From contig NZ_JAUSXL010000001.1 of assembly GCF_030815975.1 (NCBI RefSeq), positions 558,001-622,000 of the forward strand: a stretch of 64,000 nucleotides of DNA. The letters are read 5' to 3'. The DNA comes from Variovorax paradoxus. GTDB taxonomy: Bacteria; Pseudomonadota; Gammaproteobacteria; Burkholderiales; Burkholderiaceae_C. Positions 748 through 21,886 of the stretch are shown in pieces; the stretch's first letter is position 1, and every line of letters begins with the position of its first letter. The position numbers were made by a program, and so were the translations under genes. Under the pieces are notes generated by a model. The model did not search any database. It was given only the letters and a program-made list of their open reading frames with translations, and had not been told where the DNA came from.

Positions 748-764
748 CAAGAAAGGACCGCCCA

Positions 765-3547: not shown

Positions 3548-3608
3548 TCACATCGACGCTGACCCGGACGACCAGATCCATTCATACAAAAGGACAAGGA
3601 GACAAACC

Positions 3609-4622: not shown

Positions 4623-6487
4623 GCGGGCCGGCCCTCGGCCTGGCGGCCGGCGCGCGCGTGGACGCGCCCCGGCTGTCCGCCATCGAGCGCCGGCTCGGGA
4701 CGCTGGTCGACATCGCGGCCGGCGGCCTGGTGCTGGCCGACGTGGCCGTGCTGCTCGCGGGCGTGCTGGCACGCTTCGTGTTCCACAGCCCGCTGGTCTG
4801 GTCCGACGAGCTGGCATCGATCCTGTTCATCTGGCTCGCGATGCTGGGCGCGGTGGTCGCGCTGCGGCGCGGCGAGCACATGCGCATGACCGCGCTGGTC
4901 TCGATGCAGCCGCCGTCGCGGCGCCCGCTGTTCGAAGCCCTGGCGCTGTGCGCGGCGCTCGCGTTCCTGGCGATGGTGGCGTGGCCGGCGTGGGAGTACG
5001 CATCGGAAGAGCGCTTCATCACCACGCCCGCGCTGAACATCTCGAATGCATGGCGGGCCGCGGCGCTGCCGGTGGGCATCGGGCTGATGGGGCTGTTCGC
5101 GGTGCTCAGGCTGCTGCGCGACGTGGAGTGGCGGATCACGGCCAAGGCGGTGGCGATCGTGGCCGTGCTGATCGTGGCGTTCACGCTGGGCCGCTCGGTG
5201 TTCCAGGACCTCGGGCGGCTGAACCTGCTGGTGTTCTTCGTCGGCGTGGTGCTGGCGGGCGTGCTCGCGGGCATTCCCATTGCCTTTTCGTTCGGTCTCG
5301 GCACCTTCGGCTATCTGGCGCTGGCCACCGACACGGCGCTGCCCGTGATCGTGGGCCGCATGGACGAGGGCATGTCGCACCTGATCCTGCTGGCGGTGCC
5401 GCTGTTCGTGTTCCTCGGGCTGCTGATCGAGATGACCGGCATGGCCAAGGCCATGGTCGCATTCCTCGCGGGCCTTCTGGGGCATGTGAAGGGCGGGCTG
5501 TCGTACGTGCTGGTGGGGGCGATGTATCTCGTGTCGGGCATCTCGGGCTCCAAGGCGGCCGACATGGCGGCGGTGGCGCCGGCGCTTTTTCCCGAGATGA
5601 AGCAGCGCGGCGCGAGCGAAGGCGAGCTTGTCGCGCTGCTGGCCGCGACCGGTGCCCAGACCGAGACGGTGCCGCCCAGCCTGGTGCTGATCACCATCGG
5701 TTCGGTCACGGGCGTGTCGATCGCCGCCTTGTTCACGGGCGGCCTGCTGCCGGCCGTGGTGCTGGGGCTGATGCTGTGCGTGGTCGTGTACTTTCGCTGC
5801 CGCGGCGAGGACCTGGGCCAGGTCGTGCGCGCGCCGTGGCGCGAGGTCGGCCGGCTCGCCGTGGTGGCGCTGCCGGCGCTGGCCTTGCCGTTCGTGATTC
5901 GCGCGGCGGTGGTCGAGGGCGTGGCCACCGCGACCGAGGTCTCGACCATCGGCATCGTGTATGCCGTGGTCGCGGGGCTCGTCGTGTACCGGCAGTTCGA
6001 CTGGAAGCGGCTGGGGCCGATGCTCGTCGCGACGGCATCGCTCTCGGGCGCCATCCTGCTGATCATCGGCACCGCGACGGCCATGGCCTGGGGCCTCACG
6101 CAATCGGGCTTCTCGCGCCTGCTGGCCGAAGCGATGACCGGCCTGCCCAGCGGCGCGCCGATGTTCCTGGCGGTATCGCTGGTGATCTTCGTGGTGCTGG
6201 GCAGCGTGCTCGAGGGCATTCCGGCCATCGTGCTGTTCGGCCCGCTCCTGTTTCCCATCGCGCGGCAGCTGGGCATCCACGAGGTGCACTACGCGATGGT
6301 GGTGGTGCTGTCGATGGGCCTCGGCCTGTTCGCGCCGCCGCTGGGCGTGGGCTACTACGCGGCCTGCGCGATCGGACGCGTGCATCCCGACGCGGGCATC
6401 CGGCCGATTGCGGGCTACATGGTGGCGCTGCTGGTGGGGACGATTGCGGTGGCGGCGATTCCTTGGCTGTCCATTGGGTTTCTTTGA
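4619..6487 (+). CDS. Fused TRAP transporter permease, DctQ-DctM
   Basis: Inner-membrane permease of 622 residues that fuses the small DctQ domain (about residues 1-175, four membrane helices, with the LVWSDELASILFIWLAMLGA signature) to the large DctM domain (about 185-622, roughly a dozen hydrophobic helices). DctM signatures seen are GIPIAFSFGLGTFGYLAL, SGISGSKAADMAAVAPAL and GSVLEGIPAIVLFGPLLFPIA. The start ATG at 4619 overlaps the DctP stop. The last 71 bases (6417-6487) recur at 19851-19920, where they are not part of any intact permease gene. The C-terminus looks complete here, so this is the parental or intact copy. Confidence 0.92.
   Translation: MSGPALGLAAGARVDAPRLSAIERRLGTLVDIAAGGLVLADVAVLLAGVLARFVFHSPLVWSDELASILFIWLAMLGAVVALRRGEHMRMTALVSMQPPSRRPLFEALALCAALAFLAMVAWPAWEYASEERFITTPALNISNAWRAAALPVGIGLMGLFAVLRLLRDVEWRITAKAVAIVAVLIVAFTLGRSVFQDLGRLNLLVFFVGVVLAGVLAGIPIAFSFGLGTFGYLALATDTALPVIVGRMDEGMSHLILLAVPLFVFLGLLIEMTGMAKAMVAFLAGLLGHVKGGLSYVLVGAMYLVSGISGSKAADMAAVAPALFPEMKQRGASEGELVALLAATGAQTETVPPSLVLITIGSVTGVSIAALFTGGLLPAVVLGLMLCVVVYFRCRGEDLGQVVRAPWREVGRLAVVALPALALPFVIRAAVVEGVATATEVSTIGIVYAVVAGLVVYRQFDWKRLGPMLVATASLSGAILLIIGTATAMAWGLTQSGFSRLLAEAMTGLPSGAPMFLAVSLVIFVVLGSVLEGIPAIVLFGPLLFPIARQLGIHEVHYAMVVVLSMGLGLFAPPLGVGYYAACAIGRVHPDAGIRPIAGYMVALLVGTIAVAAIPWLSIGFL
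6417..6487 (+). repeat. Direct repeat, copy 1 (3' end of TRAP permease gene)
   Basis: These 71 bases encode the last ~23 residues of the permease and its stop. The same sequence is at 19851-19920 in the same orientation, with one missing base near the left end (ATGGTGGCG versus ATGGTGCG) and one synonymous change (GCG to GCT). Similarity stops at the stop codon. The two copies bracket the 13.4-kb module. Confidence 0.9.
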
Positions 6488-6516
6488 GGGGGCCAGCGTT
6501 TCGAGGGCTTCAGGCC

Positions 6517-6538
6517 CCGAGGATGAAAGAGTCCTCGG
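6517..6538. terminator. Candidate bidirectional stem-loop between convergent genes
   Basis: Perfect 7-bp inverted repeat CCGAGGA / TCCTCGG with an 8-base loop in the 80-base gap between the permease stop (6487) and the stop of the minus-strand dehydrogenase (6568). The position suits a terminator, but there is no T-tract on either side, so it is weak as an intrinsic terminator. Confidence 0.35.
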
Positions 6539-6567
6539 ATTCCGCTGCTGCGTGGTTGCCAGCCTCG

Positions 6568-7524
6568 TCAATATCCGCGGGATGGCTCGACGATGTTGTC
6601 GGGCAGGTCGCCGGCTGAGACGCGGAGGATGTTGGCCGCGATCTGCTTGGCCGAGGATGACGGGATGGCCACTGATGCGAGGTGCGGGGTGATGAGCACG
6701 TTGGGCATGCTCCACAGCGCATCTCCGGTCGGCAGGGGTTCGTGCTCGAAGACATCCAGCGTTGCCGCGCCGATGTGGCCACTCTGGAGGAGTTCCGTCA
6801 ACGCGGCCTGATCCACCAGGGTGCCCCTGGCGACGTTGACGAATGCAGCGCCGGGCCGTAATTTTTCGAGGCGGGCGCGATCGAAGAGATGCCTTGTCTG
6901 CGGCGTGAGCGGCAGCATCAGGACGACGATGTCCGCTTGGCCAATCACGGAATCGAGCGTCTCCATGCCGGCCGAACACTCCACGCCATCGATCTGCGCA
7001 AGGCTGCGCGACCAGCCCAGTGTTCTGAACCCCTGGCGCTGAATTTCATGCGCTGCCTTGGCTCCCAAATGCCCCAGTCCCAGCACCGCGACGGTTATTT
7101 CCTCCGGCGAACGCGGGTGGCGATAGGCCCACCGGCCTGAGCGCTGGGCCTGCTCGAAGACCGGAATATCTCGGGCGTGCCGGAGCACCGCGAACAGGAC
7201 ATACCCGGCCATCATTCGCGACATCTGCGGATCGGTAATCCGGGTGATGGGAACGTTCCCTGGGAGGTCGTCGCGTCCCACCAGCGAGTCGACTCCGGCG
7301 CCCAGGTTGATGATCAGCCGCAGGTTCGTCATGCGTTCGAAAATGCCCTGCGGGGGTTTCCAGACCATGGCGTAGTCGATCTCTTCCGGCCGCTCGGTCT
7401 GGCTTGCGTGAATCACCTGGAGTGCCGGAAGCTGGGTCTGAAGCGCCTTCTTCCAGGTCTGGAAATCGTCGAAGTCGCTATAGAAGGCCAGGGTGCCGAC
7501 AGCCGCTGCTTCAGGAAACGTCAT
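6568..7524 (-). CDS. D-isomer-specific 2-hydroxyacid dehydrogenase, GhrA-like
   Basis: NAD(P)H-dependent reductase of 2-oxoacids, closest in layout to glyoxylate/hydroxypyruvate reductase A. The ATG at 7524 gives 318 residues; an in-frame TTG at 7530, overlapping the stop of the upstream gene, is a possible alternative start. Seen: the Rossmann motif GLGHLG near residue 145, ARGTLVD with the substrate-binding arginine, Glu in DVFEHEPLP, and the catalytic His in ITPHLAS. It is the last gene of a tight five-gene minus-strand run (ABC ATPase, quinone oxidoreductase, GST, dehydroquinase-like, this gene). A second GhrA-like paralogue is at 58456-59388. Confidence 0.88.
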   Translation of the reverse strand: MTFPEAAAVGTLAFYSDFDDFQTWKKALQTQLPALQVIHASQTERPEEIDYAMVWKPPQGIFERMTNLRLIINLGAGVDSLVGRDDLPGNVPITRITDPQMSRMMAGYVLFAVLRHARDIPVFEQAQRSGRWAYRHPRSPEEITVAVLGLGHLGAKAAHEIQRQGFRTLGWSRSLAQIDGVECSAGMETLDSVIGQADIVVLMLPLTPQTRHLFDRARLEKLRPGAAFVNVARGTLVDQAALTELLQSGHIGAATLDVFEHEPLPTGDALWSMPNVLITPHLASVAIPSSSAKQIAANILRVSAGDLPDNIVEPSRGY

Positions 7525-7526
7525 CT

Positions 7527-8000
7527 TCAAGAAACCTGTTTGTTCTTTCGCACCAGGCGCGCGACGGCCTCGATGGCGAGTTCATAGCCGTCTCCGCCAA
7601 GTCCGGCAATGACACCATCCGCCACCTTGGATATGTAGGAGTGATGGCGGAAGGGCTCGCGCTTCCAGATATTGCTCATGTGGGCTTCGATGATCTTCCC
7701 GGGAAAAGACAGCAGGGCATCCAGGATGGGGATGGACGTGTAGGTCAAACCGGCCGCATTGATGACGATGCCGTCCGCGACGCCGCGGGCTTCCTGGATC
7801 CAGTCGATCAGCTGTCCTTCATGGTTCGACTGCAGAAAGCGCAGGCGGACCTCCAGCGAGGCGGCCTTTTGCTCGCAGCGCGACTGCAGGACGGGGAAAC
7901 TGTCCGTGCCGTAGTTCTTGGTGGAATCCAGGCCGTAGAGGTTGGCGTTGGGGCCGTTCAGGAACCAGACGGAGATGGGAGGATTCGAGGTTTCGGTCAT
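7527..8000 (-). CDS. Type II 3-dehydroquinase (AroQ)-like protein with altered active site
   Basis: Small flavodoxin-fold protein of 157 residues. It aligns end to end with type II 3-dehydroquinate dehydratases: LNGPNANLYG at 14-23, QSNHEGQLIDW at 57-67, and EAHMSNIWKREPFRHHS at 105-121. Kept residues: Tyr30 (catalytic Tyr), Asn81, Glu105, His107. Changed residues: the mobile-loop position that is normally the catalytic Arg in the GTREPEIYG segment is Asp25 here, and the substrate-binding NPGAYTHTS segment reads NAAGLTYTS, so its His is Tyr87. Family knowledge says the Arg is essential for dehydroquinase activity, so a different substrate is likely. It sits in a catabolic operon rather than with shikimate genes, with 7-base spacing to GST and 2 bases to the GhrA-like gene. 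Confidence 0.8.
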   Translation of the reverse strand: MTETSNPPISVWFLNGPNANLYGLDSTKNYGTDSFPVLQSRCEQKAASLEVRLRFLQSNHEGQLIDWIQEARGVADGIVINAAGLTYTSIPILDALLSFPGKIIEAHMSNIWKREPFRHHSYISKVADGVIAGLGGDGYELAIEAVARLVRKNKQVS

Positions 8001-8007
8001 CGTTTTC

Positions 8008-8628
8008 TCAAGCTTCGTAGGGTTGGGTGGCCTGCATGGCGGGCAGGCGCTGGAAAGCTTCGTTCCAACGGGCGGCGATGCCGCATTTCGCGCGCCAGTT
8101 CAGCTCGGGAAATCGGAAGTCCAGATACCCCAATGCGCAGCCGACGGTGATCTCGCCGATGGTGGGCTTGTCGTGGGCCAGCTCGGATGCAATGGTTTCG
8201 ATCGAGGCGAGGCAGGCCGTGACTTTGGTCAACAGGGCCTCGCGCCAGGTGGGCCACTGGAATTCGGGGGGACGCGCCGTCAGCTCGTAGCGCGCCAGCA
8301 GCGCGGCGTCGAGCAGGCCATCGCCCAGCGCCTGGCGGCTGAGCGCCGTCCATCGATCGGCGCCGGACGCGGGAAATATCGTCCCTGCGTCCGCTTGGCT
8401 GGCCAGGTACTCGCAGATCACGCGGCTGTCGTAGAGGACCTGACCGTCTTGCAGGATCAGGGTCGGCACCTTGGCGAGCGGGTTGTGAGCCGCGATGCGC
8501 GGGTCGCGTCGAACCGGATGAGCGGCGCTGTCCAGGAGTTGGATTTTCTCGGCCTGTCCGGTCAGATGCGCACACACCATGACCTTTCGCACGAAGGGCG
8601 AGGTCGGAGCAAAGAGGAGTTTCATCAT
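8008..8628 (-). CDS. Glutathione S-transferase family protein
   Basis: GST of 206 residues with an N-terminal thioredoxin-like domain (MKLLFAPTSPFVRKV, then the glutathione-binding KVPTLILQDG and the acidic YDSRVICEYL block) and an all-helical C-terminal domain. Function would be glutathione conjugation, isomerisation or reductive chemistry on a catabolic intermediate. The ATG at 8628 overlaps the quinone oxidoreductase stop (ATGA); a second ATG follows immediately at 8625. The longer upstream frame is only a shadow of the preceding gene. Membership of a catabolic operon suggests an isomerase or detoxification step; this is inference. Confidence 0.9.
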   Translation of the reverse strand: MMKLLFAPTSPFVRKVMVCAHLTGQAEKIQLLDSAAHPVRRDPRIAAHNPLAKVPTLILQDGQVLYDSRVICEYLASQADAGTIFPASGADRWTALSRQALGDGLLDAALLARYELTARPPEFQWPTWREALLTKVTACLASIETIASELAHDKPTIGEITVGCALGYLDFRFPELNWRAKCGIAARWNEAFQRLPAMQATQPYEA

Positions 8629-9638
8629 CAGGGCACCAGCACCAGCTTGCCGAACACCTTGCCGCTTTCCAGCATGGCATGCGATGCCGCGGCCTCGCCG
8701 ACCGGAAAAGTGGCGTGGATGCGCGGCGCGATCCACCGGCTTCTCAGCAGCGGCATGACGTGGTGGGCCAGGCGCTTGGCCATGCGGGCCTTTTCGGCGT
8801 GGCTTTGCGGACGCATGGTGGAGGAGTGCAGGCTCAGCTGGCGCTGCATCAGTGTCAGCAGTTCGATGCTGACCGCCGAGCCCTGCATGAAAGACAGGCT
8901 GACATGCCGTCCGCCGAAAGCCATGGCTTGAAGATTGCGGCGCACATAGTCGCCGCCGACGATGTCGAGCACCACGTCCACTCCACGCCCCGCGGTGTAG
9001 TCCAGGCAGGCCTGGGTGAAGTCGGTGGTGGGCCAGCAGATCGCCAGATCGGCGCCGAGGGCCTTCAGTTCGGGAAACCGGGCTTCATCGCTGTCGGTCA
9101 CGATGACCGTGCAGCCGGCCACATGGGCCATCTGGATCGCCAGGGTGCCGATGCCGCCCGCGGCGCCGTGGATGAGCACCGTCTCGCCCATCGCCAGACG
9201 CCCGAGTTCGAACAGGTTGTGCCAGACGGTGAAGAGTCCTTCGGGCAAGGCCGCGGCCTCGATGTCGGACAGAGGGGCCGGCACGACGAAGGAATGATCG
9301 ACCGACGCCGTGCACCACGGCGCATAGCCTCCACCGGGCACCAGGCTCATGAGCCGCTGGCCCACCAGCGCGCTGTCGGCACCCGGGCCGCAGGCGACCA
9401 CCTCGCCACACACCTCCAGTCCGAGGATATCGGTGATGCCGGGCGCGGGCTTGGCGATGCCCTGGCGCTGCATGACATCGGGCCGGTTGATGCCGGCGGC
9501 CAGCACGCGCAGCAGGACTTCGCCGGCGCCGGGGACGGGCATGGGGCGCTCGGCCAGCACCAGCACGCTGGCATCGCCGGGCTCCCGGGCGACGATGGCT
9601 TGCATTGAACTTGGAAGGGAGGTTCTGATGTCGGTCAT
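8628..9638 (-). CDS. NAD(P)H:quinone oxidoreductase, MDR family (PIG3-like)
   Basis: Medium-chain dehydrogenase/reductase of 336 residues without the structural-zinc cysteine cluster, which places it with quinone/enoyl reductases. Seen: an N-terminal GroES-like fold with GEVLLRVLAAGINRPDVMQRQG, the cofactor motif IHGAAGGIGTLAIQMAH, and a C-terminal segment ending GKLVLVP. It follows the ABC ATPase gene by 18 bases and overlaps the GST start, so it belongs to the same transcript. It probably reduces an alpha,beta-unsaturated ketone or quinone produced in the pathway, but the substrate is unknown. Confidence 0.9.
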   Translation of the reverse strand: MTDIRTSLPSSMQAIVAREPGDASVLVLAERPMPVPGAGEVLLRVLAAGINRPDVMQRQGIAKPAPGITDILGLEVCGEVVACGPGADSALVGQRLMSLVPGGGYAPWCTASVDHSFVVPAPLSDIEAAALPEGLFTVWHNLFELGRLAMGETVLIHGAAGGIGTLAIQMAHVAGCTVIVTDSDEARFPELKALGADLAICWPTTDFTQACLDYTAGRGVDVVLDIVGGDYVRRNLQAMAFGGRHVSLSFMQGSAVSIELLTLMQRQLSLHSSTMRPQSHAEKARMAKRLAHHVMPLLRSRWIAPRIHATFPVGEAAASHAMLESGKVFGKLVLVP

Positions 9639-9656
9639 GGGGTTTGCCGGGGGCTG

Positions 9657-10805
9657 TTACTTTCGGGAGCTGAAGACGCTGATGCCCTCATCGAGAAGCG
9701 CCAGTCCGACGACCGAGCCGACGGGCCAATGCTGCATGGCGCCCAGGCCTGCACTGCGCACCGTGACCACCTGCCGGGCCGTCCTCGGAACATCCACATC
9801 CACGTAGGTGTTGATGTGGTCACCCTGGAAGACATGGTGGATTACGGTGCCGCTCAGGACCGAACCGGCATGCAGGTTCTCCAGCAGGATGTGTTCCGGC
9901 CGGACGTAGACGTCCAGCCTTTCGCCTTCGTGCGATGCATCGACCAGTCGGGCCTGCGGAAGGCTGAGATAGCCGGAGCCCAGGCGCAGCTGGATCTCGT
10001 GGGCGGTCTTGCCGTGGTAGTGGGCCGGCAGGATGTTCACGTCGCCAAGAAAGGACGCCACGAACGGATCCTGCGGACTGCGGTACAGGTCGGCCGGCGA
10101 TGCGATCTGGCGGATGACGCCGGCCGACATCACGGCGATGCGGTCCGACATCGCCAGCGCCTCGCCCTGATCGTGGGTGACGAAGACCGTCGTCAGGCCC
10201 AGGCGGCGCTGGATCTCGCGAATCTCGACCTGCATCGAGCCGCGCAAGCTCTTGTCCAGGGCAGAGAAGGGCTCGTCGAGCAGCAGCACCTTGGGCTGGA
10301 TGATCAGTGCGCGCGCCAGCGCCACACGCTGCTGCTGGCCACCGGAGAGTTCGCGCGGCTTGCGGTGCCCCAGACCGGTGAGCTTGACCATGGCCATCGC
10401 TTCCTTGACGCGCTGGGCCACCTCGTCCTTGGGTACGCCCCGCATCCGCAGGCCATAGCCGATGTTGCGCTCCACGGTCATGTGCGGAAAGAGCGCGTAG
10501 TTCTGAAAGACGATGCCGATCTGCCGCTTGTGCGGCGGATCGCTGGTCACCGGCTGCCCCTCGATGAAGATCTCGCCGCTGTCGGCCTCGGCAAAGCCCG
10601 CGATCAGGTTGAGCAGCGTCGTCTTGCCGCAGCCCGACGGACCCAGCAGGGTAAGGAATTCGCCACGCTTGATCTTCAGCGAGACCTCGTGCAGCACGGT
10701 CTGGTCGTGGTACTTCTTGACCACGCCTTCCAGGCTGACGGCTGTGTCGGCCTGCGGATGCGAAAGGCTGGGCTGCGCTGCAGGGTCGGAGTGGACTACT
10801 TTCAT
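9657..10805 (-). CDS. ABC transporter ATP-binding protein, PotA/spermidine-putrescine type
   Basis: ATPase of an importer of the polyamine/opine class. The chosen ATG at 10805 gives 382 residues; a TTG six codons upstream is less likely. Walker A GPSGCGKTT, Q-loop FQNYALFP, signature LSGGQQQR, Walker B VLLLDEPFSALD and H-loop VTHDQGEA are all intact. The C-terminal TOBE-like regulatory domain follows from about residue 285. The matching binding protein and two permeases are not adjacent: they lie on the plus strand at 17088-19819, with six genes in between. No other PotA-type ATPase is present in the window, so these parts plausibly form one transporter. Confidence 0.9.
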   Translation of the reverse strand: MKVVHSDPAAQPSLSHPQADTAVSLEGVVKKYHDQTVLHEVSLKIKRGEFLTLLGPSGCGKTTLLNLIAGFAEADSGEIFIEGQPVTSDPPHKRQIGIVFQNYALFPHMTVERNIGYGLRMRGVPKDEVAQRVKEAMAMVKLTGLGHRKPRELSGGQQQRVALARALIIQPKVLLLDEPFSALDKSLRGSMQVEIREIQRRLGLTTVFVTHDQGEALAMSDRIAVMSAGVIRQIASPADLYRSPQDPFVASFLGDVNILPAHYHGKTAHEIQLRLGSGYLSLPQARLVDASHEGERLDVYVRPEHILLENLHAGSVLSGTVIHHVFQGDHINTYVDVDVPRTARQVVTVRSAGLGAMQHWPVGSVVGLALLDEGISVFSSRK

Positions 10806-11071
10806 GCTCGAACGATAAGCCAAGGGTCCGTGTCCGGTCCTTTGCCAAATTTGATGCGGCCCCTCGGAAAAACGAAAGGTCTCGATGGCCGCGGGGCACA
10901 GGTCCCAGCGAGGGCCTTGCGGGCAGCGCTTTGCTTTTTCCTAAGCCCTGAATCCGAAAAACGTGATTTTCAAATGCGGTGTGCTTCTTCAGACTCGCCT
11001 GCATCGATGGCTGGTGTCTCCAGGCTTGCCTGGCGACCTGCATCAGTGGCGATCTTCTTTAGGAAACACAA
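10806..11071. promoter_or_regulatory. Divergent control region of the module
   Basis: This 266-base gap separates the minus-strand ATPase operon from the plus-strand monooxygenase gene and must hold both promoters. It is less GC-rich than the genes. Two near-identical CSGAAAAACG words are present (10865-10874 and 10954-10963), and TTTTCCTAA at 10936-10944. The related word TTTAGGAA recurs at 16870-16877 in the module's other divergent region. These are candidate binding sites for the LysR protein encoded at 14675-15634. No convincing -35/-10 pair was identified. Confidence 0.4.
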
Positions 11072-12322
11072 ATGTCAGTGGAAAAAATCAATACCTTGGT
11101 GGTCGGCGCGGGTCAGGCCGGCATCGCCATGAGCGAGCATCTTTCGCTCGTGGGTGTGCCGCATGTGGTGCTGGAGCGCAAGCGGATCGCGGAACGTTGG
11201 CGCTCGGAGCGTTGGGATTCCCTGGTCGCAAATGGCCCCGCCTGGCATGACCGTTTTCCAGGGTTGAAGTTCGAAGGAGTTTCGCCGGAGGCATTTCCAC
11301 CGAAAGAGCGCATGGCGCAGTATTTCGAGGACTACGCCGCCATGCTGAAGGCGCCCGTACGCACCGGTGTCGACGTCAAGCAGGTGGAGCGCAACGTGGG
11401 TCGCCCGGGCTTCAAGGTCACGACCTCCGAGGGGGTCATCGAAGCGACCAACGTCGTTGCGGCCACCGGTCCCTTCCAGATTCCGGCCTATCCGAAGATC
11501 GTTCCCGAAACCGACAGCATCCAGCAGCTGCATTCCTCGGTGTACAAGAACCCGGGTCAGTTGCGGGAAGGCGCCGTGCTGGTCGTGGGGGCGGGTGCCT
11601 CCGGCTCGCAGATCGCCGAGGAGTTGCGCAAGGCGGGCAAGACGGTCTATCTCTCGGTGGGAGAGCACTACCGCCCGCCGCGTTCCTACCGCGGCCGCGA
11701 CTACTGCTGGTGGCTGGGTGCCCTGGGCCTGTGGGACGAGGTCAAGATCAAGCCCAAGAAGCAGCACGTCGCGTTCGCCGTCAGTGGCTACGAGGGGGGC
11801 AAGACGGTCGATTTCCGTCGCCTTGCGCACATGGGCGTGACGCTGGTCGGCCTGACCAAGACCTACAAGGACGGTGTCATCGAGTTCGAAGAAGGCCTGG
11901 CCAGGAATGTTGCGGAAGGCGACCAGGCGTACTTCGACGTGCTGCGCGAAGCGGATGCCTACATTGAGCAGAACGGCTTGCCCTTTGCGCCGGAGCCCGA
12001 AGCCTGGGAACTGCTGCCGGACCCGGACTGCCTCAAGGAGCCGATCATGAGCCTGGATCTCGCCAAGGCCGGCATCACGACGATTCTCTGGGCCACCGGA
12101 TTCACCTTCGACTACAGCTGGCTGAAGGTCAATGCCTTCGATGAAAAGGGCGCGCCGTTTCACAAGCGGGGCATTTCCGCCGAGAGCGGCATCTACTTCC
12201 TGGGACTGCCGAACCTGGTCAACCGCGCTTCGTCCTTCATCTACGGCGTGTGGCACGACGCGAAATACATCGCCGACCATATCGCGGTCCAGGACGCGTA
12301 CATGTCGTACGGCAAGACCTGA
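11072..12322 (+). CDS. Flavin-containing monooxygenase-like FAD/NAD(P) oxidoreductase
   Basis: Two-dinucleotide-fold flavoprotein of 416 residues. The first Rossmann motif VGAGQAG (about residues 11-17) binds FAD and the second VGAGASG (about 172-178) binds NADPH, with ATGPFQIPAYP between them and the late LWATGFTFDYSWL motif typical of FMO/YUCCA-like and Baeyer-Villiger-like proteins. The class oxygenates N or S atoms, ketones, or decarboxylates 2-oxoacids. It is the first plus-strand gene of the module; AGGA just upstream of the ATG serves as ribosome site. The next gene, an alpha-hydroxyacid oxidase, starts 6 bases after the stop, so the two are probably cotranscribed. Confidence 0.88.
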   Translation: MSVEKINTLVVGAGQAGIAMSEHLSLVGVPHVVLERKRIAERWRSERWDSLVANGPAWHDRFPGLKFEGVSPEAFPPKERMAQYFEDYAAMLKAPVRTGVDVKQVERNVGRPGFKVTTSEGVIEATNVVAATGPFQIPAYPKIVPETDSIQQLHSSVYKNPGQLREGAVLVVGAGASGSQIAEELRKAGKTVYLSVGEHYRPPRSYRGRDYCWWLGALGLWDEVKIKPKKQHVAFAVSGYEGGKTVDFRRLAHMGVTLVGLTKTYKDGVIEFEEGLARNVAEGDQAYFDVLREADAYIEQNGLPFAPEPEAWELLPDPDCLKEPIMSLDLAKAGITTILWATGFTFDYSWLKVNAFDEKGAPFHKRGISAESGIYFLGLPNLVNRASSFIYGVWHDAKYIADHIAVQDAYMSYGKT

Positions 12323-12328
12323 GCCTGC

Positions 12329-13471
12329 ATGGCCGAGATCACCTGCATCGAAGACCTGCGCCGCCTGGCGAAGAAACGCGTGCCCCGGATGTTCTACGAC
12401 TACGTGGATGGCGGCTCGTGGACCGAATACACCTACCGTGCCAACGAAGAGGACTTCGGCAAGATCGAGTTTCGCCAGCGCGTGGCGGTGGACATCACCG
12501 AGCGCAGCACCGCCAGCACCATGGTCGGCCAGGCGGTCAGCATGCCGGTGGCGATCGCGCCCACGGGTCTCGCCGGCATGCAGCATGCCGATGGCGAGAT
12601 CCTGGCGGCGCGCGCGGCGCAGAAGTTCGGCATACCGTTCACTTTGTCGACCATGAGCATCTGCCCGATCGAGGCGGTGGCCGAAGCGACCGGCCGCCAT
12701 CCGTTCTGGTTCCAGCTCTATGTGCTGCGCGACCGGACGTTCGTGGAAGCCCTGATCGAGAGGGCCCGGAATGCCAACTGTTCCGCGCTCGTGGTCACCA
12801 TGGACCTGCAGGTATTCGGACAGCGGCACAAGGACAAGAAGAACGGGCTGTCCACTCCCCCTCGGCCGACCCTGCGCAACCTCGTGAACCTGGCGAGCAA
12901 GCCGCGCTGGTGCTTGAACATGCTGGGCACCCGGCATCGCCGTTTCGGCAACATCGTCGGGCACGCGAAGGGCGTGGACAACATCGGCTCGCTGGTGGAG
13001 TGGACCCGGGAACAGTTCGATCCACGCCTGTCGTGGCAAGACATCGAATGGATCAAGAAGCGCTGGAACGGCAAGCTGATCGTCAAGGGCATCCAGGATC
13101 CCGAGGACGCGCGGCTGGCGGTGGAAAGCGGGGCCGATGCCATCGTGGTGTCCAACCACGGCGGGCGGCAGCTCGATGGCGCCTCGTCGTCGATCTCCAC
13201 CCTGCCACGCATCGTGGAGGCCGTCGGACAACAGGTGGAGGTGCACATGGATGGCGGCATCCGCTCAGGGCAGGATGTGCTGAAGGCGATCGCACTCGGC
13301 GCGCGCGGCACCTACATCGGCCGCGCCATGATGTACGGCCTGGGCGCCCTGGGAGAGAAAGGCGTTGCCACGGCCTTGCACCTCATTCAGAACGAACTCG
13401 ACCTCTCCATGGCCTTCTGCGGCAAGACGGATGTCCGCGGCGTCGACCGCGAAATCCTGCGCATGCGCTGA
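12329..13471 (+). CDS. FMN-dependent alpha-hydroxyacid oxidase/dehydrogenase (LldD-like)
   Basis: TIM-barrel flavoenzyme of 380 residues that oxidises L-2-hydroxyacids to 2-oxoacids. Seen: the N-terminal FDYVDGG-type segment (FYDYVDGGSW), the FMN-binding PVAIAPTGLAGM, WFQLYVLRDR, and the catalytic His in SNHGGRQLDG followed by the phosphate-binding DGGIRSGQDVLKA and ARGTYIGRA. The length matches L-lactate dehydrogenase (LldD) and the mandelate/glycolate oxidase subgroup. The substrate cannot be chosen from sequence. It ends 3 bases before the stop of the convergent M20 gene. Confidence 0.9.
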   Translation: MAEITCIEDLRRLAKKRVPRMFYDYVDGGSWTEYTYRANEEDFGKIEFRQRVAVDITERSTASTMVGQAVSMPVAIAPTGLAGMQHADGEILAARAAQKFGIPFTLSTMSICPIEAVAEATGRHPFWFQLYVLRDRTFVEALIERARNANCSALVVTMDLQVFGQRHKDKKNGLSTPPRPTLRNLVNLASKPRWCLNMLGTRHRRFGNIVGHAKGVDNIGSLVEWTREQFDPRLSWQDIEWIKKRWNGKLIVKGIQDPEDARLAVESGADAIVVSNHGGRQLDGASSSISTLPRIVEAVGQQVEVHMDGGIRSGQDVLKAIALGARGTYIGRAMMYGLGALGEKGVATALHLIQNELDLSMAFCGKTDVRGVDREILRMR

Positions 13472-13474
13472 GGC

Positions 13475-14656
13475 CTACTGGCAGAGGAAGTCGACGAGGG
13501 CGGCCATCATCCGGTCGCAGGCTTCGATCTGCGACAGTTCCACGTATTCATCGGCCTTGTGCGCCACCTCGATGCTGCCGGGACCGCAGATCAGCACCGG
13601 GGTTTCGCGCCAGCTCTGCTTGAACAAGCCGCCCTCGGATCCGAAATCGACCTTGGTGCAGCGGGTGCCGGGGGGCAGCAAGGAACCGAGCAAGCCGACG
13701 GCCGGCGAATCCTCGGGCGTGCTCAGGCTGGGATAGCTGTTGGTCAGCTGGATGTCCGGCAAGGAGGCCTCGGGATGCACCGCATCGGCCGCCACGCGGT
13801 CGACCAGGCGCTGCAGCACGCGGGCCAGGATCTCCTCCGGCTGGTCTTGCGAGACATGGCGAATCTCAAAGCTGACCTCGCATTCGCTGGGCACGATGTT
13901 CAGGGCCCGTCCGCCGTGGATCACGCCGACATGGACCGTGGAGTAGGGCACGCCGTAGCCCTCCTCGCGAGGGCCGGTCTCCGACAGTTCACGCTGTACC
14001 TCGCGCACCGACGCGACCAGGTCGCTCGCCATGTGGACGGCGTTGATGAATCTGGGCGCCAAGCCAGAATGGCCGGCCTGGCCACAGCAGACTGCCCGAT
14101 AGGCGGACTTGCCCTTGTGACCCGTGCCGATACGCATCAAGGTGGGCTCGCCGACGATGCAAAGGTAGGGCGCGGGAAGGTCGTTCTCGAGCCGGCGCAG
14201 CAGGTGACGCACGCCGACGCAGCCGATCTCCTCGTCGAAGGACAGGGCCAGTTGCAGAGGTCGCCTCAGCGGTCTGCGGGCCGCAGCCACCATGGCGATG
14301 ACGGCGCAGGCGACGAAGCCCTTCATGTCGGCCGAGCCGCGTCCGTAGATGCGGCCATCCTTGTGCGTGGCCTCGAAGGGCGGCGAAGTCCAGGGCTGAC
14401 CGTCCACGGGCACCACGTCGGTGTGTCCGGAGAGCAGGACACCCGGAACGCCTTGCGGACCCACCGTGGCGAACAGGTTGGTCCTGGTGGCGTCCTGTGG
14501 GTCCGGTGCAAGGGTCGATTCGATGCCGGCTTTCGCCAGGATCTCTTGCACCTTGTGGATGAGCCCGACATTCGGTTTCAGGGAAACCGAGGGGAAGGCA
14601 ATCAGGGTTTCCAGCAGCGAGATGCTGGACATGCTTGCGGCACTTTCTTGATCCAT
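13475..14656 (-). CDS. M20 family metallohydrolase, acetylornithine deacetylase (ArgE)-like
   Basis: Zinc-dependent amidohydrolase of 393 residues. Metal-site motifs are intact: SGHTDVVPV (His and the catalytic Asp), GRGSADMKG (bridging Asp), DEEIGCVG (catalytic Glu and metal Glu), and a C-terminal metal His in VAHKADEYV. The dimerisation-domain His is in QAGHSGLAP. The family removes acyl groups from amino acids, the ArgE subgroup from N2-acetylornithine. Within a catabolic module with a polyamine/opine-type transporter it more probably deacylates an imported N-acyl compound than works in arginine synthesis; this is inference. The LysR gene ends 18 bases before its start, so it heads the neighbour's transcript. 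Confidence 0.88.
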   Translation of the reverse strand: MDQESAASMSSISLLETLIAFPSVSLKPNVGLIHKVQEILAKAGIESTLAPDPQDATRTNLFATVGPQGVPGVLLSGHTDVVPVDGQPWTSPPFEATHKDGRIYGRGSADMKGFVACAVIAMVAAARRPLRRPLQLALSFDEEIGCVGVRHLLRRLENDLPAPYLCIVGEPTLMRIGTGHKGKSAYRAVCCGQAGHSGLAPRFINAVHMASDLVASVREVQRELSETGPREEGYGVPYSTVHVGVIHGGRALNIVPSECEVSFEIRHVSQDQPEEILARVLQRLVDRVAADAVHPEASLPDIQLTNSYPSLSTPEDSPAVGLLGSLLPPGTRCTKVDFGSEGGLFKQSWRETPVLICGPGSIEVAHKADEYVELSQIEACDRMMAALVDFLCQ

Positions 14657-14674
14657 GGCGATGCGTTGGGCGCT

Positions 14675-15634
14675 TCAGGGCGCTGCGATGTGGGGGTCGA
14701 AGAATCTCGCCGCGCTCATGCCGGGGATGTACTGGTCGGAGATGTAGGCGCGGCAGCGCTCCATGAAGACACGGGTCAGCCGCGACTGCTTCATCGGCTT
14801 GTACGTGGCCAGGCCAAGCTGCATCGGGCGATTGGTGCCGGCCAGGCGCACACGCACCATGCGTTTGCCGTCGAGCGCCTGGTTCGATTTGGGCCGCACG
14901 TTGAACAGCGCATACCCGATGCCGTTGGCCACCATGGAGCGCACCACTTCCTCGGACCGCGAGCGCGCCACGATGTTCGGCGTGACGCCGGCCTTGGCGA
15001 AAAGCGAGGTGAAATACTCCCGGCTCATCGGCAGGTCGAGCAGCACGTAGGGCTGGGCCGCCAGCTCCTCGAACGTGACGGCCTTCTCCTGCGCCAACGG
15101 ATGCAGTTCGCTCACCAGCACATAAGGCGGCAGCGTCGCCAGGGTTTCGAACTCGATGTCGTCGCCCAGGTGCAGGTCGTAGGTGATCGCCAGATCGATC
15201 TCGAGCGCACGGATCTTGTTCATCAAGACCACCTGGTCGCCTTCGACCATCTCCACTTCCACCGTCTCGAACGCTCGAGAAAATCCGAAGATGACCTCGG
15301 GTGCAATCATGGCGGTGAGCGACTGGAAGCTGCCCACCCGCAAAACGCCTTGCATGACATCGCTCGAATCCGAGGCGATCTCATACAGGCGGGAGGACTG
15401 GTCGAGCACGTCTTCGCACTGCCGCAGCACCAGGGTGCCGATGGCGGTCAGTCCCAGTCCCTTGGAAGGATGGCGGACGAACAACTGCACGTTGAGTTCG
15501 GACTCGAGATGCGCAATGGCCGCGGAGATCGAAGGCGAGGAGATATGGATCTGCGCCGACGCAGCGGCGATGCTGCCGTGCGTCGCGGTGGCGACAAAGT
15601 ACTCCATCTGGCGCAAGGAAACGCGGTTGAGCAT
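14675..15634 (-). CDS. LysR-type transcriptional regulator
   Basis: DNA-binding regulator of 319 residues: an N-terminal winged helix-turn-helix (LRQMEYFVATATHGSIAAAS... through about residue 65) and a periplasmic-binding-like effector domain (about 90-300). The start was placed at the ATG at 15634 because family homology begins there; the longer frame upstream is a shadow of the DUF1028 gene. It is the only dedicated regulator inside the 13.4-kb module and is likely to control both divergent regions (10806-11071 and 16791-17087). Confidence 0.9.
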   Translation of the reverse strand: MLNRVSLRQMEYFVATATHGSIAAASAQIHISSPSISAAIAHLESELNVQLFVRHPSKGLGLTAIGTLVLRQCEDVLDQSSRLYEIASDSSDVMQGVLRVGSFQSLTAMIAPEVIFGFSRAFETVEVEMVEGDQVVLMNKIRALEIDLAITYDLHLGDDIEFETLATLPPYVLVSELHPLAQEKAVTFEELAAQPYVLLDLPMSREYFTSLFAKAGVTPNIVARSRSEEVVRSMVANGIGYALFNVRPKSNQALDGKRMVRVRLAGTNRPMQLGLATYKPMKQSRLTRVFMERCRAYISDQYIPGMSAARFFDPHIAAP

Positions 15635-15699
15635 GTCGAGGTAGAGAAGAGGCTGGGGAGCGGCGCGGGACGTTGACAGTCCAGTGTACCGGCGGCCCT

Positions 15700-16371
15700 T
15701 CAGAGGTTTCCAGGCACCCCGAAGCTGGGGGCTGCGCGCGGGTCGAGCGCCCGAGTGATGTAGGCCTGCAGCTGCGGTTCGTACACCTTCCAGGTGGCGT
15801 AGAGGGCCTGCACCGGGTCGAGCTCCACCCAGTCCAGCCGCAGATCCACGATCGGCCAGTTTTGCTCCCCGTAGACCAGCAGGCCGGCCGAATGCACGGG
15901 GCCTTCCTCGCCACCGGCCGCCTGGCCGGCGAGCATGGCCTGCATCAGGCGTTCGGCCAGCGGGCCTTCGGCGCCCTCGAATGCCGAGAGCATCGCCTGG
16001 GGCACCTCGCATGTGAGCAGCATGTTGCCGGCGCAGGCAGCATGCGTGCCGACCACGCTGGCCAGGGTGCCGAGCGCCTTGGCCCCGGTGAAAACCACCG
16101 GCGGGTTCGACGCATCGATAGCCATCACCTGGCGGTAGTCGATGAAGGGACGCTTTTGCAACTCGGCCACCGCTTGCGCCGGTGTCAGTCCGCTGGCGAG
16201 CAGGTCCAGGGCGAGCGGGCCCAGGTCCGGATCGGTGATGTTCTGGCTGGCGGCGGCGCCCACGTGCGTGCGGCCGCGGATGCAACGCGCGGCGACTGCG
16301 GGGGAGGACGAGGCAACGGCGGCACCGAACTGCCCGGTGGCGGGGCAGCGCGCGATGATGGAGAACGTCAT
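15700..16371 (-). CDS. DUF1028 domain protein (Ntn-hydrolase-like)
   Basis: Protein of 223 residues matching the DUF1028 family from its first residues: MTFSIIARCPATGQFGAAVASSS, then AAARCIRGRTHVGAAASQN and SAGLLVYGEQNWPIVDLRLD. The family is predicted to have an N-terminal-nucleophile hydrolase fold and is often found beside RidA, M20 peptidases and polyamine/amino-acid transporters, as here. No catalytic activity is established. It starts 5 bases after the RidA stop and precedes the LysR gene by about 65 bases. Confidence 0.85.
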   Translation of the reverse strand: MTFSIIARCPATGQFGAAVASSSPAVAARCIRGRTHVGAAASQNITDPDLGPLALDLLASGLTPAQAVAELQKRPFIDYRQVMAIDASNPPVVFTGAKALGTLASVVGTHAACAGNMLLTCEVPQAMLSAFEGAEGPLAERLMQAMLAGQAAGGEEGPVHSAGLLVYGEQNWPIVDLRLDWVELDPVQALYATWKVYEPQLQAYITRALDPRAAPSFGVPGNL

Positions 16372-16376
16372 GGGGC

Positions 16377-16790
16377 TCAGTCGGGAATCATGGCCGTGGC
16401 ATCAATTTCCACCAGCCATTCCGGACGGGCCAGGGCAGACACCACGATGCCTGTCGATACAGGGAAAACCCCTTTCAGCCAGCGGCCCACGACGAGATAG
16501 ACGGCCTCGCGGTAACGTGGATCGATGATGTAGATCGTGATCTTGCAGATGTCCTGGAGTTCGCCGCCGGCCTCCTTGAGCAGCATCGCTATGTTCGCCA
16601 TGGCCTGCTCTGCTTGACCGCTGACATCCCCGATACAGACGCTCTTGGACGTTTCAAGGTCCTGTCCGATCTGCCCGCGCAGGAAAACGGTGCTGCCTCG
16701 AGCGACAACGGCCTGGCAAAGGTCGTTGTCGAGCTTCTGTTCCGGGTACGTGACCTTGGTATTGAAAGGCCGGATGCGGGTGTGTTTCAT
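16377..16790 (-). CDS. RidA family protein
   Basis: Small trimeric-barrel protein of 137 residues from the ATG at 16790 (an upstream in-frame TTG at 16820 is rejected as start). RidA-family members hydrolyse reactive enamine/imine intermediates or act as amidohydrolases. Seen: the early RPFNTKV segment, GQIGQDLET, the central AMANIAMLLKEAG, and the C-terminal arginine in ALARPEWLVEIDATA that corresponds to the substrate-carboxylate-binding Arg. It is the first gene of the minus-strand run RidA / DUF1028 / LysR / M20. A RidA protein implies that the pathway makes an unstable imine, for example after amine or amino-acid oxidation. Confidence 0.88.
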   Translation of the reverse strand: MKHTRIRPFNTKVTYPEQKLDNDLCQAVVARGSTVFLRGQIGQDLETSKSVCIGDVSGQAEQAMANIAMLLKEAGGELQDICKITIYIIDPRYREAVYLVVGRWLKGVFPVSTGIVVSALARPEWLVEIDATAMIPD

Positions 16791-17087
16791 GTTGCTGAGG
16801 GCTGATGACGGGAACGGCAATGGTCATCGGCGCCGGACATCGGTGCCATTTGTATTTTCCGGGCGACCGTTTAGGAATTTCCGAGCTTTGCCCGCGGACC
16901 CGCGCCCATCAGGAAAATTGAGGCACCTCTAAGTAAAAGGCGACTTGGCCGCAGGTCGCGAGTTCCACATCATCCGGTCGCTGAGGTGAGTGGACATGGT
17001 GCTGGCGCAACGCTTGCATCTTCAGGCAACTCGCCGACGGATTGCCAGCTCCGACCAACGTTCAACTTTTCGATCTGAGGGTTTTCA
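16791..17087. promoter_or_regulatory. Divergent control region, RidA operon / transporter operon
   Basis: Non-coding gap of 297 bases with both promoters. It is noticeably AT-richer than the surroundings around 16850-16935. It contains TTTAGGAATTTCC at 16870-16882 and a related AGGAAAATTG at 16911-16920, resembling words in the module's other control region. No clear hairpin or riboswitch was seen. Confidence 0.35.
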
Positions 17088-18116
17088 ATGATTCGCAAGC
17101 TTCTGACACTGTGCGTGCTTTCCGCCACGCTGGCCGCCACATCGGCCTACTCGCAGGACAACGCCCTGGTGGTGAGCACGTGGGGTGGCAGCTTCCGCGA
17201 CCTCATCGACGAGAACATCGGCAAGGAGTTCACGAAGCAGACCGGCGTGCCGGTGAAGTACGTGACCGGCGGCACCATCGACCGCCTGAACAAGGCCAAG
17301 CTCGCCTCCAAGCCCGAAAGCGACATCACGTTCACGACCTCGCATGTCGGCTGGCTCTACGTGAACAGCGACCTGTTCGAGCAGCTCGACAACAGCAAGA
17401 TCCCGAACGCCAGCCGCCTGGTCGACCGCGCCAGGATCAGCCCGTACCACATCGGCAGCTGGGCCTATGTGTATTCCATCGGCTATCGCGCCGACCTGCT
17501 GCCGCCCAGCGTCAAATTCGAAAGCTGGAATGACCTGTGGAATCCGGCCCTGAAAGGCAAGATCAGCGCCCCTGACTTCGACCCCAGCCACTTGATTGCG
17601 GTTGCCGCCATGCTGTCGGGCGGAGATGCCAGGTCCTGGGAAAAAGGCCAGGACAAACTCAAGGCGCTCAAGCCCAACTTCAAGGCGTTCTATACCAACG
17701 ATGCCAATGCGCAGCAATTGATCGCCACCGGGGAAACGCCCGTGGAAGTCATTCTTTCGATGAACGCGTACCACATGGCCAGCCAGGGCGTGCCGATCAA
17801 GGTGGTCATGCCCAAGGAAGGTGCGGTGCTCGGCGTTGACACCATGGCCATCATGAAGGGAAGCACCAAGGCCGACCTGGCCCACAAGTTCCTGAACATC
17901 GCGCTGTCGCCCGAAGTGCAGTCAAGGATCGTGGCTTCGAAGAAAGCCAGCCCGGTCGTCGACAACGCAACGGTTTCGGCCGAAGACGCCAAGCTGCCGG
18001 GCGTATTCACCACCAAGGCACAGTGGGACACCCAGACCATCGTCATCGACAACAAGCTGCGCGCCGAGAAGACTGCCGAGTGGCGCAAGTGGTTCACCGA
18101 GAACATCATGAACTGA
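17088..18116 (+). CDS. ABC transporter substrate-binding protein, PotD/spermidine-putrescine class
   Basis: Periplasmic binding protein of 342 residues with a Sec signal peptide (positively charged MIRK, hydrophobic core, cleavage near residues 21-23 at AYSQ). The mature domain opens with ALVVSTWGGSFRD, typical of extracellular solute-binding family 1 members of the polyamine/opine/thiamine group, and contains WNDLWNPALKGKI. No lipobox was seen. The permease gene follows after 31 bases. The ligand is unknown; polyamines, opines or other cationic nitrogen compounds are typical for the class. Confidence 0.9.
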   Translation: MIRKLLTLCVLSATLAATSAYSQDNALVVSTWGGSFRDLIDENIGKEFTKQTGVPVKYVTGGTIDRLNKAKLASKPESDITFTTSHVGWLYVNSDLFEQLDNSKIPNASRLVDRARISPYHIGSWAYVYSIGYRADLLPPSVKFESWNDLWNPALKGKISAPDFDPSHLIAVAAMLSGGDARSWEKGQDKLKALKPNFKAFYTNDANAQQLIATGETPVEVILSMNAYHMASQGVPIKVVMPKEGAVLGVDTMAIMKGSTKADLAHKFLNIALSPEVQSRIVASKKASPVVDNATVSAEDAKLPGVFTTKAQWDTQTIVIDNKLRAEKTAEWRKWFTENIMN

Positions 18117-18147
18117 CCCCGTTGGGTCTCTGGAACAAGGTTCAGGA

Positions 18148-18996
18148 ATGCGCTCCGATCTACGGGCCTGGCTGGTATCTCCAGCCGTCATTGTTGCGAT
18201 GGGCATCGCCGTCTCACTGGCCGCGGTGTTCCAGTTCAGCTTTCGGGCGTTTGTTCCCGGCTCACTGGATGTCGGCGGGCTGACCTTCGCCAATTTCTCC
18301 GGCATGGGTAAGTCGATCTATCTCGATGCGTTTGCCAATACCTTGTTGCTGAGTGTGGAGACGACGGTGTTCTCGCTTGTCGCCGCCTATCCCCTGGCCT
18401 ACGCCCTGGTTCGCGTGAAGAACCGGGCTCTCAAATCCTTCATCCTGATCGTTTCGATCACGCCGCTATTCCTGGGTGAAATCGTCCGGACCTACTCGTG
18501 GATCGCCGTGCTGGGCAGCAACGGCTTCATCAACGGCACCTTGCGAAAGCTCGGCTTGATCGAATGGCCATTCGAACTCATGTTCACCCACTTGGGCGTG
18601 CTCGTCGCGCTGGTGCACGTGACGATTCCCGTGGTGGTCCTGATGCTCGCCACGGCGATCTCGCACATCAACCGCGACTATGAAAAGGCCGCGCAAAGCC
18701 TGGGCGCGGGCCCCGTCAAGACTTTCGTCACGGTCACGCTGCCTCTTTCGATGCCGGGCATTCTGGCCAGCATCACGACCGCCTTTGCCTGGACCTTCAG
18801 TGCCTTTGCGACGCCCCAGATGATTGGCGGAGGCCGCGTGCCCACGGTGTCGACCCTGGTCTACCAACTCGGCTTTTCCTCCATGAATTTTCCGCTGGCA
18901 GCCAGCCTGAGCGTGATGGGGCTGCTGATGACGACCGCGGCGCTCTTTGCCTTGGGACTCTTGACGAAGCGCCTGAAGGCCGCTGGAGGACACTGA
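18148..18996 (+). CDS. ABC transporter permease, PotB-like
   Basis: Inner-membrane permease of 282 residues with six predicted membrane helices. The ATPase-coupling EAA loop reads EKAAQSLGAGPVKTFVTVTL around residues 180-200. The start is the ATG at 18148, preceded by CAAGGTTCAGG. It sits between the binding protein and the second permease (one base gap), in the usual PotD-B-C order. Its base composition is visibly less GC-rich than genes outside the module. Confidence 0.9.
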   Translation: MRSDLRAWLVSPAVIVAMGIAVSLAAVFQFSFRAFVPGSLDVGGLTFANFSGMGKSIYLDAFANTLLLSVETTVFSLVAAYPLAYALVRVKNRALKSFILIVSITPLFLGEIVRTYSWIAVLGSNGFINGTLRKLGLIEWPFELMFTHLGVLVALVHVTIPVVVLMLATAISHINRDYEKAAQSLGAGPVKTFVTVTLPLSMPGILASITTAFAWTFSAFATPQMIGGGRVPTVSTLVYQLGFSSMNFPLAASLSVMGLLMTTAALFALGLLTKRLKAAGGH

Positions 18997-18997
18997 A

Positions 18998-19819
18998 ATG
19001 AAAATCCGAAGTTCCCTGCCTCTGCCGCTGCGTGTTGCCGGGCCGCTGCTGATCGCCATCCTGCTTGCATTCGTATTGTTGCCGGTGGTGGTGGTGACGA
19101 TCGCCGCATTCAACGAAAAAGCGATCCTTGCTTTTCCGCCTGAATCGTATTCACTCAAGTGGTTTGCGCGGGTGTTCAGCTATCCGGATTTCCAGGAAGG
19201 ATTTCGCTCAAGCATGGTCGTCACCGGATGGTCCTCTTTCCTTGCTTTGGTGATCGGGACGTGTCTATCCATCGCCGTGAAGCGGTTGGAGTTCCGGGGC
19301 AAGCAGCTCCTTCTCGCGATCCTGCATTCGCCGCTGGTGGTGCCGCATTTCACGTTGGGGCTGGGCCTGCTCATTCTGGTGTCGCAGACCTCGGTGCAAC
19401 GTGGATACGGCATCGTCATCCTGTGCCACGTCATGCTGGTGCTGCCCTTCGTGCTCAGGAGCGTCTATGTTTCCATGGAGAACCTGGACGAACGGCTCGA
19501 GCAGGCGGCGGGCAGTCTGGGCGCGCCGCCGGTGAAGGTGCTTTTCACCATCACGGTTCCTCTTTTGGCTCCGGGGCTCTTCGGTGGATGGCTGTTCGCT
19601 GCCATCATGTCATTCAGCGAATTCACTGCATCGCTTTTCGTGACGACACAGGACACGCAGACGCTGCCGGTGGCCATGTACAACTATGTTCGGGAGTTTG
19701 CCGACCCGACCCTGGCGGCGCTCTCCGCTGTCTACATTGCGGTGACGGCGGCACTGCTTGCGTTTGCCAACTATTTTCTGGGCTTGGGGAAAGTCCTCAA
19801 TATCGAGGACAACCATTAG
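18998..19819 (+). CDS. ABC transporter permease, PotC-like
   Basis: Second transmembrane subunit, 273 residues, six hydrophobic helices. Its EAA loop is EQAAGSLGAPPVKVLFTITV near residues 167-186. It completes the transporter whose ATPase is at 9657-10805. The stop lies 31 bases before the second copy of the TRAP 3'-end repeat, so it is the last intact gene of the 13.4-kb module. Confidence 0.9.
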   Translation: MKIRSSLPLPLRVAGPLLIAILLAFVLLPVVVVTIAAFNEKAILAFPPESYSLKWFARVFSYPDFQEGFRSSMVVTGWSSFLALVIGTCLSIAVKRLEFRGKQLLLAILHSPLVVPHFTLGLGLLILVSQTSVQRGYGIVILCHVMLVLPFVLRSVYVSMENLDERLEQAAGSLGAPPVKVLFTITVPLLAPGLFGGWLFAAIMSFSEFTASLFVTTQDTQTLPVAMYNYVREFADPTLAALSAVYIAVTAALLAFANYFLGLGKVLNIEDNH

Positions 19820-19850
19820 CGTAGCGCTGAGGGCGCGGGACACGCCCGGG

Positions 19851-19920
19851 ACATGGTGCGCTGCTGGTGGGGACGATTGCGGTGGCTGCGATTCCTTGGC
19901 TGTCCATTGGGTTTCTTTGA
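19851..19920 (+). repeat. Direct repeat, copy 2 (orphan 3' end of a TRAP permease gene)
   Basis: These 70 bases match 6417-6487 except for one deleted base and one synonymous substitution. They would encode ALLVGTIAVAAIPWLSIGFL and the stop in the same orientation, but no upstream permease sequence exists here; the PotC-like gene ends 31 bases before. Next to it on the right is the broken end of an AbiEii-type gene. It is a recombination scar or an insertion-site remnant. Confidence 0.9.
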
Positions 19921-19969
19921 CGGGGCGGGACCCGCTATGAGGAGTTGGCGGCTTTGCCCCTGGCGCCTG

Positions 19970-20936: not shown

Positions 20937-21129
20937 AGAATGAGAGACATCAAGCAAGGAAAGAATGCCTGCCGCATTCGACAAATTCCCGATCGGAAAC
21001 AGGGCCTTCCGCCGCACGTCGCCTCACGTGTTGTAGCGTCTCGATGGTCGCCCGCCAGCACCGCACCGCCAGCACCGCAGTACCGCGCATGCCCGCGGCC
21101 ACCGAGGTCGCGACACCATGAAGCCTTGA

Positions 21130-21723: not shown

Positions 21724-21886
21724 TGGTCCGGTGCTTGCGCGAGCGGCACGCCGCGCGCTCCCGGCTGACGCGCGCATCGGCGGCAGCCTACGTTGAAAAC
21801 CAAGGTCTTCACATTCAATGGCGCCGACGTCGAACGGGGACCGAGGCGTGCCGTGCGTCTTGCCGTCGGCGGATCAGGAGACAGCC

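Follow-up and report, generated by a model that had tools for sequence, protein, structure and literature searches.

Does the direct repeat that brackets a segment of acquired DNA mark the place where that segment was inserted? The question is raised by a locus in Variovorax paradoxus, within a stretch of 64,000 nucleotides (the window) on a 766,610-base (0.77-Mb) contig of a genome that is assembled in two contigs and is 99.98% complete. The 3′ end of a TRAP permease gene occurs here twice, on either side of 13.4 kb of catabolic and transport genes. An earlier sequence-only reading of the window took this to be either an acquired segment or the outcome of recombination between two TRAP loci. 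Comparison with related genomes leads to a different account of the repeat: the window is probably a hybrid, in which a lineage with one allele of the locus acquired the segment from a donor with another allele, the repeat being a scar that the donor DNA brought with it.

Organization of the locus

The window begins within an SDR-family dehydrogenase gene (1..747, plus strand; Pfam adh_short_C2), the 5′ end of which lies outside it. This is followed on the same strand by an operon (765..6487) that by Pfam assignment encodes a thiolase (765–1934), an AMP-binding CoA ligase (1931–3547), the TRAP protein DctP (3609–4622) and a fused DctQM protein (4619–6487; Pfam DctQ and DctM). The end of the intact dctM forms the left copy of the repeat (6417..6493, plus strand), while the right copy (19851..19926, plus strand) is a non-coding relic of the dctM 3′ end that has no permease body. 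The duplication and its direct orientation are as first described, and it extends past the gene, to 6493 and 19926 respectively. Compared without gaps, 67 of 69 bases are identical (6425–6493 against 19858–19926). When the copies are aligned in full with a gap (6417–6493 against 19851–19926) they differ by one deleted base (GTGGCGC/GTGCGC), a GCG/GCT change inside dctM and one difference right after the stop codon. The longest exact word common to both is 33 bases, whereas shuffling the window 20 times under an order-1 Markov model gives no exact repeat longer than 20 bases.

Between the copies lies a module of 13.3 kb with 14 predicted genes (6566–19819). As proposed from the sequence, it has its own LysR regulator, transporter and enzymes. 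The left arm is on the minus strand, and comprises genes assigned by Pfam and NCBIfam to a D-2-hydroxyacid dehydrogenase (6568–7530), a type II dehydroquinase (7527–8000), a glutathione S-transferase (8008–8736), a PIG3-type quinone oxidoreductase (8628–9638) and a PotA-like ABC ATPase (9657–10823). The middle of the module has a flavin-dependent oxidoreductase (11072–12322) and an FMN-dependent L-lactate dehydrogenase-like gene (12329–13471) on the plus strand, and then on the minus strand an M20/acetylornithine-deacetylase-like hydrolase (13475–14656), the LysR regulator (14675–15610), a DUF1028 gene (15700–16371) and a Rid-family gene (16377–16820). The right arm returns to the plus strand with an ABC solute-binding protein (17088–18116) and two ABC permeases (18148–18996 and 18998–19819), so that the sole ATPase seen, the PotA-like protein, sits on the opposite arm from the permeases. 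To judge from the gene families, the module probably encodes a regulated pathway for uptake and breakdown of an acylated or amine-containing substrate, the hydrolase, Rid and PotA-like genes giving no more than a tentative hint of what the substrate is. Among the matches listed in the literature for DUF1028 or RidA there is no paper on the function of such a cluster.

The GC content of the module is 63.3% (6566–19850), lower than in the flanks (69.4% for 1–6487 and 68.5% for 21130–64000), which bears out the impression gained from the sequence. No integrase or transposase family was reported by the family scan of the 14 predicted genes, again as first noted, and a repeat search gave no IS-sized repeats at the module ends, where the neighbours are the operon and the AbiE genes. 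A composite transposon was considered and rejected because there are no flanking insertion sequences at these ends. ARAGORN finds no tRNA in the window. Elsewhere in the window there is a 15-bp tandem repeat (58375–58449) that adjoins an inverted repeat with 33-base arms (58149–58363).

To the right of the relic, on the minus strand, is an AbiEii-like toxin frame (19927..20436), identified by Pfam AbiEii and by comparison with the related genomes G017, G019 and G044, and then a helix-turn-helix gene (20427..20897; Pfam HTH_31 and HTH_3) that is antitoxin-like by position. The toxin gene had been thought to be cut off at 19970. It is in fact disrupted there by a deletion, with 237 bp fewer than in G017 and 238 bp fewer than in G019 and G044 (in alignment coordinates), and in the list of open reading frames the frame now extends through the relic to 19610. 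In G017 the stretch that is deleted from the window has GAA at both ends. G043 has another, larger deletion in its AbiEii-like gene; the difference between the two deletions indicates that the gene decays repeatedly at this locus. Beside AbiE (window 20950–21750, compared with loci L099, L100, L101, L102 and L214) relatives have extra DNA of varying size, about 0.4 kb in G044, 1.7 kb in G043, 5 kb in G060 and 6 kb in G019, and this stretch looks like a hotspot. On the plasmid NZ_CP138514 about 9 kb separates the relic from the remnants of AbiE.

Two alleles in related genomes

The locus occurs in relatives as two alleles. In allele A the SDR gene is followed by the thiolase/CoA-ligase/TRAP operon and then by AbiE. 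This is found in G019, G043, G044 and G060, all of which match the window from 1 to 6483–6493 (∼94%) and pass from there directly into the AbiE flank, with no module. They contain the empty site expected for an accessory segment exchanged at a shared locus, and provide the arrangement, DctQM directly followed by the right flank, that the sequence-only reading had suggested looking for in other genomes. In allele B the module replaces the operon, starting just past the stop codon of the SDR gene and reaching the final ∼76 bp of dctM, which persist as a relic. There are three records of it: G017, G042 and the plasmid NZ_CP138514 (V. paradoxus SPNA7). In G017 and G042 window 1–752 is joined to 6566–19972, followed by the AbiE flank, and the left junction on the plasmid is identical (752 to 6566); all three lack the operon. 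The SDR gene is therefore the left homologous flank common to both alleles, the homology of the B genomes stopping at 752, and in each B record 8 bases lie between the SDR stop codon and the first base shared with the window. The scrap of dctM remaining to the right of the module is 76 bases in G017, 73 in G042 and 21 in NZ_CP138514, or 30 in the last if an ambiguous GTGGCGCTG is included.

The window combines the two. It is A up to 6493, continues with a filler of 72 bp, and is from there on the module of B with its dctM scrap. The part of the module common to relatives begins at 6566, so that 6494–6565 is a separate filler, and the left end first proposed for the segment has to be moved inward to 6566.

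Allele A is ancestral and allele B derived, since five of the six outgroup loci carry the A arrangement: they have window 1 to ∼6490 at 81–85%, in one or two pieces, without the module. The sixth (G071) lacks 823–3406. The module is absent from all six within the 20 kb taken per locus. Within the genus, the dctM end is matched in 38 of 101 genomes (E up to 0.001), many at 71–86%. The solute-binding/permease part is found at an identity of at least 80% in 12 of the 101 (the window's own genome included, and two as contig-end fragments); some match to it is present in 52, short in those beyond the 12. The absence of the module from the four A genomes and from five of the six outgroup loci supports the view of it as an acquired segment, and it is neither in place in all close relatives nor core-like in composition.

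Fourfold-site divergence provides a measure of relative age. Compared with the window, the module has a divergence of 0.056 in G017, 0.074 in G042 and 0.081 in NZ_CP138514, and of 0.100 at a second location in G044. The corresponding values are 0.127–0.135 for the TRAP operon (four A genomes), 0.107–0.164 for the SDR flank (about 150 sites each), 0.148–0.163 for the far right flank where at least 400 sites are compared, and 0.240 for the far right flank of G019 (100 sites). The SDR-flank and AbiE comparisons have fewer than 200 sites each, and the toxin stretch 19975–20436 was excluded from the age argument because the frame used had two stops. The module thus differs from the B genomes by about half the amount measured for the TRAP operon and for most flanks, so between the window and the B genomes the segment is younger than what surrounds it, unlike the pair G017 and NZ_CP138514, where the SDR flank (0.065) and module (0.064) are alike and give no signal of recent transfer. 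On an rpoB tree the A and B genomes are intermixed, the support for placing the window's own genome being 80/80 only. On this evidence the module entered or left the window's lineage after these lineages separated.

The same data bear on the possibility that operon, module and repeat together are ancestral, the operon having then been lost from the B genomes and the module from the A genomes by recombination across the repeat. Such a history requires fewer transfers to account for the right side common to the window and B, the 69-bp repeat could yield a deletion of the module, and the precise junction of 752 to 6566 could itself be a deletion. We nevertheless consider it unlikely. Five of the six outgroup loci have the operon with neither module nor relic, the module differs from that of the B genomes by only about half as much as the flanks do, each A genome would have to lose the module, the A genomes being mixed with the B genomes in the rpoB tree, and the filler is present in no B record.

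Origin of the repeat and of the junctions

Each copy of the repeat can be assigned to an allele. The left copy has the A states throughout. The right copy shares its 1-bp deletion with the relic of G017 (that of G042 is without it), has a C after the stop codon that is also present in the relics of both G017 and G042, and has a flank state otherwise found in G017 alone. GCT says nothing about its allele, as the A genome G060 also has GCT. We also considered two paralogous TRAP loci as the source of the copies, and rejected them: in this genome no other DctQM match is better than C2:6676–8430, at 75% identity. The suggested recombination between two TRAP loci is therefore right in that TRAP sequences recombined, and needs amending in that these are alleles of one locus. 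From the sequence comparison the two copies are best read as an intact gene and the relic left when the operon was replaced, and the repeat as a scar brought along with the module from the donor, not a product of the insertion of the module. If two alleles of one locus have met on one replicon in this way, the repeat is neither an attachment site nor a target-site duplication.

Insertion at a tRNA gene is common but not obligatory for integrase-type genomic islands, IMEs and ICEs. That the window has direct repeats at both ends of the segment, one of them being the 3′ end of a gene, is what would be expected if an integrase-borne island had inserted at the end of dctM to generate attL and attR. 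We regard this as extremely improbable, given that there is no integrase in the 14 genes and no tRNA in the window, that B records have a dctM scrap on one side of the module only, and that the module elsewhere has other flanks, with no dctM end seen adjoining it. An element of the genomic island, IME or ICE class was rejected on this basis, the repeats being two dctM alleles and single-copy in B. A direct repeat around the insert would also result from a Campbell-type insertion, in which one crossover at the end of dctM took in a circle of module and relic. Such an event would predict mosaic copies, but the left is wholly A-type and the right wholly relic-type, and the sequence after the left copy differs from what follows the relic in B; there is accordingly very little chance that this occurred.

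The hybrid reading, that an A-type lineage acquired the module from a B-type donor, is in our view the probable one. The left junction of the window is not homologous, and it is here that the filler (6494..6565, no strand assigned), which contains a predicted hairpin, is found. There is no match to the filler in the 100 other genus genomes or in plasmids, nor do the sequences 3′ of dctM in the six outgroup loci resemble it. A search of 399 family genomes gave, apart from the window's own genome, two weak hits, 24 and 32 bases long; the first 22–32 bases of the filler (6490–6521) match two family genomes (L248 and L249) at 88–96%, possibly a small dispersed motif or chance. The absence of the filler from every B record means that the actual donor is not among them. 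It bears also on whether the junctions are an assembly artefact. They are known here from the assembly alone, and both parent alleles occur in related strains, yet misjoining known alleles would produce neither the right-side deletion nor a filler that the other searched genomes lack. With the genome in two contigs and 99.98% complete, an artefact is very unlikely.

In the proposed acquisition, DNA of the donor comprising the module, the relic and sequence at least to about 19970 would have entered an A-type cell. Homology or near-homology would account for the join at the right end. Beyond 19970 the window is 96.0 and 95.6% identical to G017 over two 250-bp intervals, after which identity is ∼89–93%; there is no clear step. 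At the left end illegitimate end joining would have left the resident dctM intact, with the filler at the join. Judged from the sequences at the joins, the left junction looks illegitimate and the right is compatible with homology. Ku-family genes are present in all 10 genomes searched and ComEC-family genes in all 7, which makes end joining and DNA uptake possible. Homology-facilitated illegitimate recombination, as set out in PMC3240628, has one homologous and one illegitimate end, and the junction pattern that we infer is the same. That work concerns small molecules in E. coli experiments, and the present case is instead a natural 13-kb segment with 72 bp of filler at one join, reconstructed from sequence. 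The sequence-only reading foresaw neither the B allele nor a filler without a match, nor a repeat that travels with the module.

The B records and the window have an identical left edge of the module (6566) despite differing neighbours. This is an unexplained coincidence under any single history.

The module at other loci and the turnover of catabolic clusters

The cluster is widespread, with related 14-gene clusters in Burkholderiales. For the M20 gene 518 relatives were confirmed; 80 of their loci were kept, and 25 of these encode at least 13 of the 14 module proteins at an identity of at least 60%. Near-complete clusters are present in Variovorax, Cupriavidus, Ottowia, Pseudorhodoferax, Xenophilus and others. 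Eight of the 25 near-complete loci lack the FMN dehydrogenase and no other protein; its gene (12329–13471) is missing from an otherwise collinear module in G023, G009, G087 and G057. The module also occurs at other locations. In G044 it is additionally present on the large contig, where G043 has a different 4.3 kb, with 511 unmatched bases to its right. G022 and G023 have it at one common locus, and G069 at another, the right flank of which is module-free in G022 and G023. In G023 (C43; L236/L237) a 12-kb stretch adjoins the module, ending within about 60 bases of its left end and carrying, from the translations, branched-chain-type ABC transport genes and enzymes; G022 has 128 bases at that position.

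Six left contexts were compared, namely the B junction, the window, the G044 large contig, G022, G023 and G069, in which the modules are ∼91–98% identical to that of the window. Exact matching extends only 1–5 bases outward from the stop codon of the outermost gene, and of the 30 positions there 6–15 agree, near chance. G009, G087 and G057, which are more distant, match over a longer stretch outside the outermost gene, about 35 bases or more. That the cluster is a mobile unit in its own right, one with a fixed left end that moves from locus to locus and from replicon to replicon although it brings no recombinase, appears quite unlikely to us. In that reading the left edge might be set by, for example, a trans-acting nuclease or a preferred break; for its sharpness we offer nothing beyond selection for whole operons and chance.

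Gene-cluster turnover of this kind at an integrase-less hotspot is an already known process. Horizontal-transfer hotspots without integrases, turned over by homologous recombination at their flanks, are described by Oliveira et al. 2017 (PMC5635113). Like those, the present locus shows conserved flanks between which an accessory cluster is exchanged from strain to strain, inserts of other sizes in the same interval, and no visible mobility gene. That study is statistical and genome-wide; here a single window holds both alternative units, and its relic shows in what order the events took place.

Two consequences follow. A direct repeat around an acquired segment can mimic an attachment site and yet be the remnant of an earlier allele replacement, so that such repeats alone are no proof of the footprint of an integrase. 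The 69-bp repeat around 13.4 kb is also a testable substrate, as RecA-dependent crossing-over within it could delete the module and restore the A arrangement. At one locus across Variovorax species, exchange of whole catabolic units has been followed by their stacking, and no mobility gene is seen.
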